This document shows positions 17,148 to 29,650 of a stretch of DNA of 50,819 nucleotides, in pieces. Within the stretch, counting starts at the first letter, position 1. Every line of letters begins with the position of its first letter. Below the pieces are notes generated by a model that saw only the letters and a program-made list of their open reading frames with translations, made no database searches and was not told the origin of the DNA. The position numbers were made by a program, and so were the translations under genes. This DNA is from an uncultured Pseudomonadota bacterium (GTDB lineage: Bacteria; Pseudomonadota; Gammaproteobacteria; Methylococcales; Methylomonadaceae): NCBI GenBank assembly GCA_903928965.1, contig CAIYSZ010000050.1:1-50819 (forward strand), read 5' to 3'.

Positions 17148-17930
17148 TTATACCACCAGCGCCGCCCGCGTAGCCGTGTCGGCGATGCCGGTGGCTGGAA
17201 GGCCGGAGCCGCCTTGATAATGCCAAAGCGCCAACAAGGTCTGAAAGCCGAACGCCCCATCCGCATTGATATGCAGCGCAGTTTGTAGTTTTTCCACAGC
17301 AGCCCCGGAATCGCCCTTGATGAGGGCGTCGCTCATAAGCCCTTCGCCCCGCAAGCCGATGGCGAACAGCGCGGCTTCCGCTAGGCGTCGCCCCGGCAGA
17401 TTAGACGCGGTGGGCGTGCCCGGCCAAAGCCGCGTCATGGCCGCTATTTGGTTAACAATATCAATCCAGGCCGCGCGCCCGGCGGCTAGATTATTATGAA
17501 TTGCTTGCATTTCGACGCGTCGCGGACCTGTAAGCTCAGTGCCGCGATTGTAAACCAAGGATACTAGCGCGCCAAAACTATCCGCGGGCAGCAGATCCGA
17601 ACCCGGAAACCCCTCTAATGTAGTGTTTATTTCTCGCGGTAAGGTGTAGTTTTTGAAAACGGCTTCGGCGGCGTCCGCTGGAATGACGATATCCGCCGCG
17701 CTGGCCAGCGCGGCTTGGGCAGCCGCGCCGGTCTTACCCTTGGTTTGCTCCAACCGCGCCAGGTCGTTGGAGGAGAGATAAGCCGTCCACGCGGAAAGGC
17801 TAGCGGGGTCCGCTCCAATGTCGCAGCCATAGCCTAAGGTAACGCCGCTAGCGCCACCCGGCCATTCCGGCCTTGGGGGACAACCTTCAAAGCTTTTTAA
17901 GAGGTTGATTGTGACTTCGTTAACTTGCAT
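17148..17930 (-). CDS. Endolysin-like lysozyme with C-terminal peptidoglycan-binding domain
   Basis: This is a 260-residue protein with no signal peptide. The N-terminal domain resembles phage-type (GH24-like) lysozymes: an acidic residue E15 in LLKSFEGC, then GVTLGYGCDIGA about 20 residues later, then FGALVSLVYNRGTEL, which recalls the ALVSF-N-G motif of the family. The last 70 residues (LIKGDSGAAVEKLQTALHINADGAFGFQTLLALW) are a peptidoglycan_binding_1 domain. I start at the ATG preceded by TTGAGGAGCG. No holin, spanin or other phage gene is adjacent, so it is either a domesticated lysin or a remnant. Muralytic activity is inferred. Confidence 0.78.
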   Translation of the reverse strand: MQVNEVTINLLKSFEGCPPRPEWPGGASGVTLGYGCDIGADPASLSAWTAYLSSNDLARLEQTKGKTGAAAQAALASAADIVIPADAAEAVFKNYTLPREINTTLEGFPGSDLLPADSFGALVSLVYNRGTELTGPRRVEMQAIHNNLAAGRAAWIDIVNQIAAMTRLWPGTPTASNLPGRRLAEAALFAIGLRGEGLMSDALIKGDSGAAVEKLQTALHINADGAFGFQTLLALWHYQGGSGLPATGIADTATRAALVV

Positions 17931-18149
17931 AGTAGCGCTCCTCAAGCGATTTGATTTTAACACCATACCTACCGTTTTGCTGAGTCACCCTATATATGGC
18001 AAAACACCAACGCCATTGAACCAGCGTCATTCAAGCGCCACATGCTCCTCGGGCTTAAAGAGCGGCCATTGAATTTTTGCGACAATCGCCGCCAGATAGG
18101 CCACGGCGCCACATCCGCTCGCAAACATTTCTGAATTGTCCGCATAAAC

Positions 18150-18175
18150 AGTACACCATGAATTCATGGTGTACT
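18150..18175. promoter_or_regulatory. Perfect 26-bp palindrome upstream of dusA
   Basis: The sequence reads AGTACACCATGAA on each strand, with no spacer and an EcoRI-type GAATTC centre. It lies 53 bases before the dusA start. A repressor operator or an unusual cruciform are the simplest readings. The rest of the 298-base gap between the lysozyme and dusA contains no gene I can support. Confidence 0.6.
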
Positions 18176-18228
18176 ATTATCGTGCCAATCATTGAAATTT
18201 GCAAACTTTCAAACTCTTTCGCTAACCC

Positions 18229-19218
18229 ATGAACCCCAACAATTTCAATCATCTATTCTCCGTGGCCCCCATGCTGGATTGGACGGACCGGCATTGCCGC
18301 TACTTCCACCGTCTGCTGAGCAAAAACGCGCTGCTGTATAGTGAAATGATCACCACCGGGGCTATTTTGCGCGGTGACGCGGCGCGGCATTTGCGTTTCA
18401 ACCCCGCGGAGCATCCGGTGGCGCTGCAACTGGGCGGCAGCGACCCGGCCGACTTGGCCGCTTGCGCGCGCATCGGCGCGGAGTTCGGTTACGACGAAAT
18501 CAACCTGAACGTCGGCTGCCCCAGCGACCGGGTGCAACAAGGCCGTTTCGGCGCTTGCTTGATGCTGGAACCGGAACTGGTGGCCGAATGCGTGGCGGCG
18601 ATGCAAGCCGAGGTTTCCATTCCGGTGACGGTGAAATCGCGCATCGGCGTGGATGAGCGCGACAGCTACCCGGAACTGCGACACTTTATCCAAACCGTTG
18701 CCGCCGCCGGCTGCCGAACCTTTATCGTGCATGCGCGCAAGGCCTGGCTTAGCGGTTTGTCGCCCAAGGAAAACCGAGAAATCCCGCCCCTGCATTACGA
18801 CGTAGTGGCGCAACTGAAGCAAGATTTTCCGCATCTAAACTTTGTGCTCAACGGCGGCCTGACCGATTTGCACACCTGCCGCCATTGGCTTGAGCGCCTG
18901 GACGGCGTGATGCTGGGACGCGAGGTTTACCATAATCCGTATATTTTGGCGCACGTTGACGGGCTTTGGACAAAAGAAACGCCAGCGTTTAAAACGCGCG
19001 AACAAATTGCGCTGGATTTGCTACCTTATATTGAAGACCAGCTCCGGCAAGGAGAGCGTTTGCATGGCATCACCCGCCATATATTAGGCCTATTTCACGG
19101 CGAGGCAGGCGCGCGCGCCTGGCGGCGGCACTTAAGCGAAAATGCCAACCGGCCCGCCGCCGGCCCGCATACCGTGCTGGAAGCATTGAAACTGACGCGC
19201 GCTTCTACTCCGGCCTAG
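18229..19218 (+). CDS. dusA: tRNA-dihydrouridine synthase A
   Basis: This is a 329-residue FMN enzyme reducing uridines in the tRNA D-loop (U20/U20a in E. coli). VAPMLDWTDRHCRYFHRLLS at the start, INLNVGCPSDRVQQGRFGACLM with the catalytic cysteine C98, VKSRIGVDERDSY and FVLNGGLTD are diagnostic of the DusA subfamily. The gene is intact. Its last 100 or so codons and the following intergenic sequence are duplicated about 1.15 kb downstream, flanking a two-gene insertion; the last residues differ between copies (RASTPA here, SEYAPA there). Confidence 0.96.
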   Translation: MNPNNFNHLFSVAPMLDWTDRHCRYFHRLLSKNALLYSEMITTGAILRGDAARHLRFNPAEHPVALQLGGSDPADLAACARIGAEFGYDEINLNVGCPSDRVQQGRFGACLMLEPELVAECVAAMQAEVSIPVTVKSRIGVDERDSYPELRHFIQTVAAAGCRTFIVHARKAWLSGLSPKENREIPPLHYDVVAQLKQDFPHLNFVLNGGLTDLHTCRHWLERLDGVMLGREVYHNPYILAHVDGLWTKETPAFKTREQIALDLLPYIEDQLRQGERLHGITRHILGLFHGEAGARAWRRHLSENANRPAAGPHTVLEALKLTRASTPA

Positions 19219-19303
19219 AACGGTGCTAGCTCATTGTTTACATTCACGGATATTTTTATTGAAATAGGTAATTATCCGGCGACAAACCATAAATATATAG
19301 TAT
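18906..19303 (+). repeat. Direct repeat, copy 1 (dusA 3' end plus trailer)
   Basis: This stretch is closely similar to 20059-20406, starting at the same CGTGATGCTGGGACG sequence and running past the dusA stop into the trailer. Identity is near-complete in the first 170 bases, then drops around the stop codon. It forms the left edge of the DUF4160/DUF2442 insertion. Confidence 0.85.
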
Positions 19304-19325
19304 CCCGCCGTCATACAGCATAGAG

Positions 19326-19763
19326 CTAAGAATGCTCGGCTTCCCATCCCTTGCAGGCCAGGGCAATATAACGCGGAACAGGGCGGGCCCCGGTGCCGTA
19401 AGCGCTTATGGTACGCGGCGTCATGCCCAATGCCCGCGCGGCATCCGCTAATGACAAGCCATGACGAATCCGCCAGGCCAGGAAAATGCGCGTATCTTCG
19501 TCGGGCGCGGCTTGTTGCATGGCTTCCAACCACAAGGTATCGGCTCCAATTTGAATGTCAAAGTCCGTCCATTCGACAGCCCACCCCTCGCCGGGTATAA
19601 GCCGAGCCTTGGCAAAAACGGCAGGATCGCGCAATGGCGTCAGACCGGGCTTGGAAAAAACAGCTTCCCGCTTATCCACGATCAATGTATCACCGTTAAT
19701 AAAGGTCATCTTCAACTGATAGTTAGGCAAAGCTTCAACCGCGAATAGGCGGGGGCGTTTCAT
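19326..19763 (-). CDS. DUF2442 protein with C-terminal helix-turn-helix
   Basis: This is a 145-residue protein. Residues of about 1-75 (RLFAVEALPNYQLKMTFINGD, then DPAVFAKARLIPGEGWAVEW) are a DUF2442 domain. Residues of about 95-140 (IRHGLSLADAARALGMTPRTISAYGTGARPVP) are an XRE-like DNA-binding domain. I chose the ATG that overlaps the upstream DUF4160 stop as ATGA, with GGAAGAAATGG as the ribosome site; two in-frame ATGs lie up to 18 bases upstream. DUF4160-DUF2442 pairs recur in bacterial genomes and behave like toxin-antitoxin modules in their layout, but I know of no settled biochemical role. It is probably the autoregulator of the pair. Confidence 0.75.
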   Translation of the reverse strand: MKRPRLFAVEALPNYQLKMTFINGDTLIVDKREAVFSKPGLTPLRDPAVFAKARLIPGEGWAVEWTDFDIQIGADTLWLEAMQQAAPDEDTRIFLAWRIRHGLSLADAARALGMTPRTISAYGTGARPVPRYIALACKGWEAEHS

Positions 19764-19987
19764 GGATGCCATTTCTTCCATTCCTCAATCAATTCATTTT
19801 GGTTTGCGATAACCCACGTCATGACTTCATCACGCAAGCCTCGCGGAAATACGCCTTCGCAAGTTAACGTTTGTAGATTAATCAATACGTCAACGTTGCC
19901 GCCAACCAAATGCGCATGCATCGGCGGATGGTCGTCCTCTCGTATTTGAAGTCTATACTTATTGCGAAAACGGTGTTTTGTGGTCAT
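19760..19987 (-). CDS. DUF4160 domain protein
   Basis: This is a 75-residue protein. RNKYRLQIREDDHPPMHAHLVGG contains the conserved H-P-P-H-x-H cluster that defines DUF4160, and the C-terminus VMTWVIANQNELIEEWKKWHP is a helix. The conserved histidines could bind metal or be catalytic, but this is unproven. It is the first gene of a coupled pair (ATGA overlap with the DUF2442-HTH gene). The promoter lies so close to the ATG that the mRNA may be leaderless. Both genes sit inside the duplicated dusA end. Confidence 0.72.
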   Translation of the reverse strand: MTTKHRFRNKYRLQIREDDHPPMHAHLVGGNVDVLINLQTLTCEGVFPRGLRDEVMTWVIANQNELIEEWKKWHP

Positions 19988-19993
19988 TCGCTA

Positions 19994-20022
19994 ATGGTAT
20001 GGAAATAATTTCCATAAGTCAA
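19994..20022 (-). promoter_or_regulatory. Promoter with embedded palindrome for the DUF4160/DUF2442 pair
   Basis: On the minus strand TTGACT and TACCAT are spaced by 17 bases, and the -10 ends six bases before the DUF4160 ATG. The spacer is almost entirely the palindrome TATGGAAATTATTTCCATA (9-base arms, one central base, at 19998-20016). A bound repressor would block the promoter, which suggests autoregulation by the HTH partner. A second overlapping option (TTGACC-17-TATGGA) lies slightly upstream. Confidence 0.55.
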
Positions 20023-20058
20023 ACCACCCTATAGGTCAATTTCCGATCGAACCTTTCT

Positions 20059-20321
20059 CGTGATGCTGGGACGCGAGGTTTACCATAATCCGACTATTTT
20101 GGCGCACGTTGACGCCCTTTGGACAAAAGAAACGCCAGCGTTTAAAACGCGCGAACAAATTGCGCTGGATTTGCTACCTTATATTGAAGACCAGCTCCGG
20201 CAAGGAGAGCGTTTGCATGGCATTACCCGCCATATATAGCGAAAATGCCAACCGGCCCGCCGCCGGCCCGCATACCGTGCTGGAAGCATTGAAACTAACG
20301 AGCGAATACGCGCCGGCCTGA
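20059..20321 (+). pseudogene. Truncated second copy of the dusA 3' end
   Basis: It reproduces dusA from VMLGREVYHNP onward with a few substitutions. It lacks about 50 bases (the region encoding LGLFHGEAGARAWRRHLS), which breaks the frame and creates a stop right after TRHI. There is no start codon or upstream dusA sequence. It is probably the original chromosomal 3' end displaced from the gene by the insertion, or an imported partial copy. It is not functional. Confidence 0.85.
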
Positions 20322-20406
20322 GACCGTGTAGGCCATTGTTTAAATTCGCGGATTTTATACTGAAATACTTAATTTAATCGGCGACGCTCGGCAAATATAA
20401 GGTATA
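20059..20406 (+). repeat. Direct repeat, copy 2 (right edge of the insertion)
   Basis: This is the partner of 18906-19303. The similarity continues beyond the dusA stop through the trailer to within 30 bases of folE. The duplicated unit is therefore the dusA end plus the dusA-folE intergenic sequence. Confidence 0.8.
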
Positions 20407-20433: not shown

Positions 20434-20976
20434 ATGGAAGAACATTTTTCCAAAATCATCGCCGCCATCGGCGAAGACATCAATCGCGACGGTCTGCGCG
20501 ACACGCCGTCGCGCGCCGCCAAGGCGTTTAAATTTTTAACCAACGGTTACGGCAAGACCCTGGACCAGGTGCTGAACAACGCCATCTTCCAAGCCGACAC
20601 CGAGGACATGGTCATCGTCAAGGACATAGAACTGTATTCCTTGTGCGAGCACCATTTATTGCCGTTTATCGGCAAATGCCACATCGGATACCTGCCCACG
20701 GGCAAGGTATTAGGCTTGTCCAAGTTGGCGCGTATTGTGGACATGTACGGCCGCCGCCTGCAGATCCAAGAACAATTGACCCGGCAAATCGCTACCGCGG
20801 TGGAAACCGCCATAGACGCGCGCGGGGTCGCGGTGGTCATAGAAGCCAAGCATCTATGCATGATGATGCGCGGCGTGCAGAAACAAAACTCGGTAATGAC
20901 CACCTCGGTAATGACCGGCGTGTTCCGCGAGGAAATCAGCACCCGCTCGGAATTTCTTAACTTAATAAACCGATAA
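20434..20976 (+). CDS. folE: GTP cyclohydrolase I
   Basis: This is a 180-residue type IA enzyme converting GTP to dihydroneopterin triphosphate, the first step of folate synthesis. The zinc and active-site motif [22 protein letters not shown] is near residue 70. [30 protein letters not shown] supplies the remaining Cys ligand. I chose the ATG rather than an adjacent upstream TTG. It starts an operon: hemH follows after 3 bases. Its promoter lies within or next to the duplicated dusA trailer. Confidence 0.97.
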
Positions 20977-29120: not shown

Positions 29121-29650
29121 GCAGCATCCTACGGCTAGCTGGCGGAAAAAATAATAGGCCGCCAATCAACCCATCACCCGAGGCCTTGGCAACCGGGGAC
29201 GGTTGGCGGGGGTGTGGGAGGCATGGATGCCGACCCCAAGCCTCCACGGATGGATTCACGGCGTCCCCCGACAGCCGTCCCCGGTTGCCAAGGCCGGCTG
29301 GAAGCCTATAGCCTTTTACTTGAGCTACCGCGATTGTCCCGGCTACATCTAACGATGCGCTTCGCTACGCGAAGCAGCATCCTACAGCTAGCTGGCGGAA
29401 AAAATAACAGGCCGCCAATCAACCCATCACCCGAGGCCTTGGCAGCCGGGGAAGCGACGCCAATAGCCTTTTATTGAACTACCGCGATTGTCCCGGCTAC
29501 GTCAAACGATGCGCTTCGCTACGCGAAGCAGCATCCTACGGCTAGCTGGCGGAAAAAACAGGCCGCCAATCAACCCATCACCCGAGGCCTTGGCGGCCGG
29601 GGACGGTTGGCGGGGGTGTGGGAGGCATGGAAGCGTGATTGCCCCGGCGC
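29121..29650. repeat. Three REP-like repeat units with hairpin junctions
   Basis: Three units start with GCAGCATCCTAC(A/G)GCTAGCTGGCGG and share AGGCCGCCAATCAACCCATC and ACCCGAGGCCTTGGC (starts near 29121, 29375, 29529). Units 1 and 2 both contain ACCGCGATTGTCCCGGCTAC. The junctions are the hairpin GCTTCGCTACGCGAAGC (29359-29375 and 29513-29529). Unit 1 also has exact 21-base inverted arms at 29182-29202 and 29275-29295. The block is not coding. It separates gmhB from hddC and may attenuate transcription. Confidence 0.8.

Follow-up and report, generated by a model that had tools for sequence, protein, structure and literature searches.

Introduction

Gene pairs in which a DUF4160 protein is encoded beside a DUF2442 protein have been reported to act as toxin-antitoxin systems. 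In Dickeya dadantii 3937, DhiT is described as slowing the growth of both Dickeya and Escherichia coli, with DhiTA repressing its own promoter (PMC8198452), and in Thermus a vector lacking the second gene of a DUF4160/DUF2442 pair is reported to have given no transformants, both single deletions of the pair being stable in E. coli (PMC12724237). The pair is also listed under toxin-antitoxin annotations in a marine survey (PMC12654330).

Insertion of restriction-modification systems is reported to duplicate long stretches of target DNA, variable in length (PMC3031569 and PMC3874152, citing Nobusato 2000 and Furuta 2010). In E. coli tests of homology-facilitated illegitimate recombination (HFIR), for which deletion is given as the usual laboratory outcome, part of the lacZ end was duplicated in 56 of 60 clones, and in the 14 that were sequenced the duplications measured 109–950 bp and were ascribed by the authors to single crossovers of shortened circles (PMC3240628). 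Transformation is likewise described as able to yield tandem duplications through repeats (PMC3784515), and HFIR has been tentatively proposed for the growth of T6SS effector-immunity arrays in Vibrio cholerae (PMC5361080). Here we compare these systems with a DUF4160/DUF2442 pair found behind dusA, a core gene of tRNA modification, in a stretch of 50,819 nucleotides from a Methylomonas-like bacterium (the window), which is contig C50 of a draft genome (3.25 Mb, 116 contigs, 91.9% complete).

Results

The window has the gene order dusA, folE (encoding GTP cyclohydrolase I) and ferrochelatase gene. This order is kept in 26 of the 28 dusA loci fetched from relatives (L005–L032), all 26 belonging to the same genus and the two exceptions to other genera; ten further same-genus genomes were left out of the inspection. 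In the 26 inspected loci folE directly adjoins dusA at a distance of 37–40 nt, and TATACTC could be read by eye in each of their dusA-folE spacers. They represent empty sites, in agreement with the preliminary description, which had taken the pair to be inserted. In the window, an intact dusA (18229..19218, plus strand; Pfam Dus, NCBIfam DusA) and folE (20434..20976, plus strand) flank the two-gene module and a second copy of the dusA end. Just upstream of dusA, on the opposite strand, lies a peptidoglycan-binding-domain gene, possibly endolysin-like (17148–17966), and between the two is a near-perfect 32-nt palindrome (18147–18178). The dusA gene of one relative (G035, locus L017) is seemingly frame-broken in its assembly, as its tblastn match is split.

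As the preliminary description had stated, the dusA end and the former dusA-folE spacer occur twice, both times on the plus strand: as copy 1 at 18906 to about 19317 and as copy 2 at 20059 to about 20412. One block (18906–19084 / 20059–20237) is 97% identical and a second (19135–19225 / 20238–20328) 87% identical, with similarity continuing through the spacer to about 19317 / 20412. Copy 1 completes a full-length DusA (PRK11815, 523.9 bits against a cut-off of 269), while copy 2, which adjoins folE, lacks 50 nt (copy-1 positions 19085–19134) and has a broken reading frame. The copy-2 spacer is 110 nt long and has TATACTC in front of folE; the copy-1 spacer (19219..19325, plus strand) lacks this motif, as seen by comparison with the spacers of the 26 inspected relatives. 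Thus folE has the leader of copy 2 and the intact dusA end is that of copy 1. The other repeats found when the window was compared with itself (E 1e-5) were an array near 29.1–29.6 kb and weaker pairs at 50.5–50.8 and 6.0–6.4 kb; the array (29121–29634) has units of about 80–150 nt with 93–96% identity.

The two copies had been said to differ most around the stop codon, and the transition is in fact sharp. The best single change point lies at 19194, with 5 mismatches in 238 positions before it and 31 in 115 after it, a contrast matched by none of 5000 permutations; identity is 98% between the dusA parts and 73% between the tails with their spacers. Over the 59 codons of the first dusA block, about 2 of the differences between the copies are synonymous and 3 nonsynonymous; a further 57 nt show none. 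As a pseudogene, the copy-2 dusA is expected to accumulate changes at roughly the rate of the spacer, so one shared clock fails to produce the change point, and the contrast makes a single plain duplication unlikely. One tail with its spacer may thus derive from another lineage, or the dusA part may have been homogenised later, and a plain duplication followed by gene conversion would be another way to arrive at such a pattern. Since no relative has the long spacer, the foreign tail could be that of either copy; the change point makes another strain a plausible source of the copy-1 tail, much as the preliminary description had supposed, in which case the last ~7 codons of dusA (from 19194) are possibly donor-derived.

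Just ahead of copy 2, a short stub at 20048..20062 (plus strand) resembles dusA 18715–18729 (CGAACCTTTxTCGTG at both places) and is its probable 5′ edge before a 180-nt deletion, although a match as good was obtained in 27 of 5000 shuffled junctions. Copy 2 is likely, though not certain, to have originally started at or before dusA codon 163 and to have suffered an in-frame loss of 180 nt between CGTG repeats. The right junction also holds a filler (20027..20047), the first 18 nt of which occur once in the genome with two mismatches allowed.

A search with 18906–19330 against 37 genomes of the genus (the window's own and 36 relatives, E 0.001) found two separate dusA-end places in the window's own genome only. 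Among the 36 relatives, 25 gave a single match, which in two of them, G029 and G035, was split into a pair of adjacent pieces, and none showed a second copy; the other 11 gave no match at this threshold, so a strongly decayed second copy elsewhere could escape this count. The long spacer is absent from all 26 inspected relatives. No relative showed the module at the same place or a dusA repeat, so neither of the observations named beforehand as speaking against the original reading (the module here without any repeat, or a repeat older than the module across the genus) was made. A donor strain carrying the module behind dusA without a repeat was not found among the 36 relatives either, and the flanks of the compared modules, drawn from 73 module loci of named genomes, did not match those of the window.

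Only a two-gene module lies between the copies, as had been noted; two open reading frames there were given a family search, and both matched. The toxin gene (DUF4160, 75 aa; 19760..19987, minus strand; Pfam) comes first and overlaps by 22 nt the start of the gene for the antitoxin (DUF2442 with a C-terminal HTH, 151 aa; 19326..19781, minus strand; Pfam). DhiTA and the Thermus 'PEM' module have the same domain pair and likewise have the toxin gene first and overlapping or abutting genes, whereas the Thermus antitoxin is reported to have 92 aa (PMC12724237), against 151 aa with an HTH here. Toward the DhiT model of NCBIfam the window toxin scores 27.1 bits, under the cut-off of 100, and so it belongs to the same broad family and is not DhiT proper. 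The antitoxin is homologous to PDB 2auw (NE0471, E 6e-28), a solved structure deposited as a hypothetical protein. With a DUF4160 protein adjoining a DUF2442 protein and the toxin gene in front, we assign the module, as a DUF4160/DUF2442-HTH pair, to the DhiTA type in its broad sense and predict it to be a type II toxin-antitoxin system; among the 73 loci from named genomes, 63 have a DUF4160 relative beside the antitoxin (at E 0.01, some few being weak). The earlier view that such pairs have no settled function is outdated, as they are reported to have acted as toxin-antitoxin systems in Dickeya and E. coli (PMC8198452) and in Thermus (PMC12724237). The module is intact and under purifying selection, with dN/dS values against the copy in the same-genus genome G026 of about 0.04 for the toxin and about 0.08 for the antitoxin. 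Neither reading frame between the copies belongs to a restriction-modification system, and a family search of the two, which matched DUF4160 and DUF2442-HTH, revealed no recombinase, as had been claimed.

An operator-like palindrome, TATGGAAATTATTTCCATA (19998..20016, minus strand), lies within the stretch between TTGACT (20022–20017) and TACCAT (19999–19994), the 17 nt between these two motifs falling inside it. A 19-nt palindrome, TATNGAAATNATTTCNATA, stands ahead of the toxin start with at most three mismatches in 45 of 61 module loci (the window included) but not in the other 16, against 0.3% in shuffled controls, the consensus having been derived from the same 61 loci, of which the related ones are not independent. 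At 30 of these 45 loci the gap between its end and the start codon is exactly 10 nt, and TTGA occurs within 9 nt upstream of the palindrome in 23 of the 45. The window's own genome has the exact site once and four sites with two mismatches, while a reversed control pattern gave one. These features predict that the HTH of the antitoxin represses the module promoter at the palindrome; for the Dickeya system autorepression is reported (PMC8198452). From the promoter geometry (19985–20022), toxin RNA is predicted to start at or adjoining the start codon, and the toxin mRNA is possibly leaderless.

Further comparisons indicate horizontal transfer of the module. Its DNA is 86% identical to that of G026, whereas the dusA genes of the two genomes are only about 70% identical, that of G026 lying on another contig, and the antitoxins of two Nitrosomonadales (83% and 81% identity) are nearer to that of the window than are those of Methylobacter-titled records (75–78%, with one partial match, L097, at 82%). 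An antitoxin relative occurs in 39 of 301 genomes of the order, the window's own included (E 1e-8); at a strict limit of 1e-25 one of 369 genomes of the class matched, the window's own, and the close subfamily is patchy in distribution. Phage records gave no match, while 15 plasmid records, all under 60% identity, and 8 viral contigs did.

One independent and clear second case emerged among 80 loci tested, in a Zoogloeaceae MAG (L129), whose antitoxin is 65% identical to that of the window. There, gcvH is followed by a DhiTA-like pair, by AAGGAACCAAGCCC with the last 46 nt of gcvH, by a PIN-toxin pair, and by AAGGAACCAAGCCCCC directly ahead of gcvP. The repeated gcvH end includes the stop codon and is 93% identical to the original, and a search of the host genome with the gcvH end found two places only. 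Two toxin-antitoxin-like pairs are thus stacked between gcvH and gcvP (L129:785–2467), with one and the same 14-nt leader element closing each unit; the small partner of the PIN-domain toxin matched no Pfam family. We read the locus as a stack of two modules at a single site, each accompanied by a separate copy of the adjacent gene's end.

Beyond this case, recurrence of gene-end repeats is not statistically supported, and most modules lack one. A flanking repeat was found at E 0.05 in 15 of the 80 loci, some of which hold the antitoxin only, and most of these repeats were short matches of 12–32 nt. That of L088 is presumably a REP-like palindrome, and that of L138 has 30 nt at 83% identity. 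We set aside L145 and L148, whose repeats look like terminator hairpins, and L085 and L134, with three occurrences within the locus. L128, with a 50-nt repeat where a large ORF ends, initially seemed a further case but is not counted, since this repeat occurs a third time on the contig. With a fixed module position and loci of at least 10 kb, repeats flanked the module in 5 of 36 cases against 6 of 216 controls, but none of the five is an unambiguous gene-end duplication, so this comparison gives no real support; its design also left both L128 and L129 undetected. Among the controls, the positives were gene-internal repeats or short matches.

Flanks are shared more often on one side of the module than on both. 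Among 64 modules compared, 24 pairs share a flank within 2.5 kb, three of them both flanks and 21 only one, the one-sided pairs not being independent, as many are Methylobacter at one site: the Methylobacter-titled L089, L090, L092, L094 and L096 have the left flank in common (lipB-lipA in L096) and mostly not the right. In 12 of 14 chosen and aligned pairs homology starts 34–65 nt before the toxin start, the exceptions being L093/L095 and L121/L125. L089/L096 and L135/L138 have the other flank in common at a greater distance. One-sided sharing fits joining with homology at one side but does not prove it, as gene turnover beside the module would look alike. In L096 (4737–9248) the module stands behind lipA, and an AAA ATPase and a protein of the subtilase family (Pfam) come next, possibly defence-type cargo; this stretch is common to L091 (94% over 5.7 kb) and starts about 65 nt before the toxin start.

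Discussion

We suggest, at about an even chance, that DNA of a related strain (dusA tail, spacer and module) was joined homologously within dusA and illegitimately on the other side, duplicating the recipient's dusA end. A DhiTA-like type II module would have arrived already beside the donor's dusA tail and spacer; the donor dusA part would have paired with the recipient gene, with a crossover near 19194, as the change point implies, and the far module end, having no homology, would have been joined illegitimately into a sister copy's dusA around codon 163, as indicated by the stub. The recipient's own dusA end and spacer would thereby have been left downstream as copy 2. With copy 1 keeping DusA complete and copy 2 keeping the folE leader, the unused halves would decay, and decay is seen as frame loss and deletion in copy 2 and as the missing TATACTC box in copy 1. 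The module would then maintain itself: its antitoxin HTH would repress the promoter by acting at the palindrome, and the toxin would be freed if the antitoxin were lost. A mosaic tail fits a linear donor recombining inside dusA and joined illegitimately further upstream; the stub marks the likely joint. The layout may be that of HFIR, with the left end inside dusA at the change point and the right end obscured by the later deletion, but laboratory HFIR mostly ends in a deletion and the E. coli duplications were attributed to a different route (PMC3240628). ComEC is present in the window's own genome, as it is in 12 of 14 control genomes.

A rather unlikely alternative is that the dusA end was duplicated in tandem within the strain, that the module was captured at the joint and that gene conversion of the dusA part followed. 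The long spacer is found in both copies (110 nt in copy 2) and in none of the 26 inspected relatives, so that both copies stem from one recent ancestor, but this account requires three events, its plain duplication step alone is at odds with the change point, and no member of the genus was seen with the repeat and without the module. Integration of a circle (dusA tail, spacer and module) by one homologous crossover of the Campbell type, leaving dusA ends on both sides of the module, is unlikely. It predicts the same order of parts and was invoked for the E. coli duplications of 109–950 bp (PMC3240628); differences between donor and recipient would nevertheless be expected on both sides of the crossover, whereas the dusA parts are 98% alike and the tails with spacers 73%, and a circle integrating in this way would give no change point.

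The locus also resembles the insertions of restriction-modification systems, in which, as described (PMC3031569, PMC3874152), an addiction-type module without a recombinase is enclosed by long, variable target repeats, with an empty site in relatives; here, too, a long direct repeat surrounds the insert and relatives have the empty site, although the cargo is a toxin-antitoxin pair and the repeat copies are mosaic. That the module itself inserts in a transposition-like manner with such duplications, as proposed for those systems, is quite improbable: gene-end repeats do surround it in two unrelated hosts (46 nt and about 350–620 nt), and break points usually lie at the module edges, but the unit has no recombinase, most of the 80 loci lack a gene-end repeat and the similarity of the copies is uneven along their length. 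The earlier picture of a self-mobile unit, replacing its target's 3′ end by its own activity, is not supported: the module occupies many different sites, in most of which no gene-end repeat is seen, and a foreign look is confined to roughly the last 7 codons and the spacer; homologous plus illegitimate recombination would explain the structure.

The dusA gene is itself known as the insertion site of dusA-specific genomic islands, but these are reported to use the 5′ end, 21-bp repeats and their own integrase (PMC4482086), while the window insertion is at the 3′ end, with no integrase found between the repeats. It is very improbable that the locus is what remains of a recombinase-driven island of dusA or tRNA type that lost its integrase, since known dusA islands use 5′ sites (PMC4482086) and the window repeats a long 3′ segment with only the pair in between, even though a decayed DhiTA-like module in G183 (L170:3241–5311) is accompanied by a phage-type integrase and enclosed by repeats of a tRNA-Pro end (47 nt, 91%). 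A chimeric assembly of two strains' sequences, suggested by the draft state of the genome (116 contigs, 91.9% complete) and by spacers that resemble two alleles, is just as improbable, for the 50-nt deletion and broken frame of copy 2 would hardly be tolerable in a strain's only dusA.

Joining of related-strain DNA, homologous in dusA and illegitimate beyond the module, would have a parallel in the T6SS arrays, where a module is described as anchored by conserved upstream sequence and the old 3′ part as pushed downstream (PMC5361080); there, the effector gene itself is displaced, whereas in the window dusA is complete and an unrelated pair stands behind it. More tentatively, and as a possibility only, recombinase-less toxin-antitoxin modules may in general spread behind the 3′ ends of core genes, the gene end serving as homology arm, the other end being joined illegitimately and a mosaic scar remaining, with further events of this sort then stacking different modules at one site, as in L129. 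The locus is real and largely explained, as a known kind of toxin-antitoxin system whose antitoxin bears an HTH, the insertion being most likely due to a mechanism known for other cargo.

The palindrome offers a ready prediction for the regulation of the DUF2442-HTH subfamily, to which the solved 2auw is related. As concrete scars, the dusA locus and L129 both indicate a single mechanism and bring it within reach of testing, and the value of the dusA locus lies in being a clear scar that hints at how toxin-antitoxin modules without an enzyme of their own may enter chromosomes.
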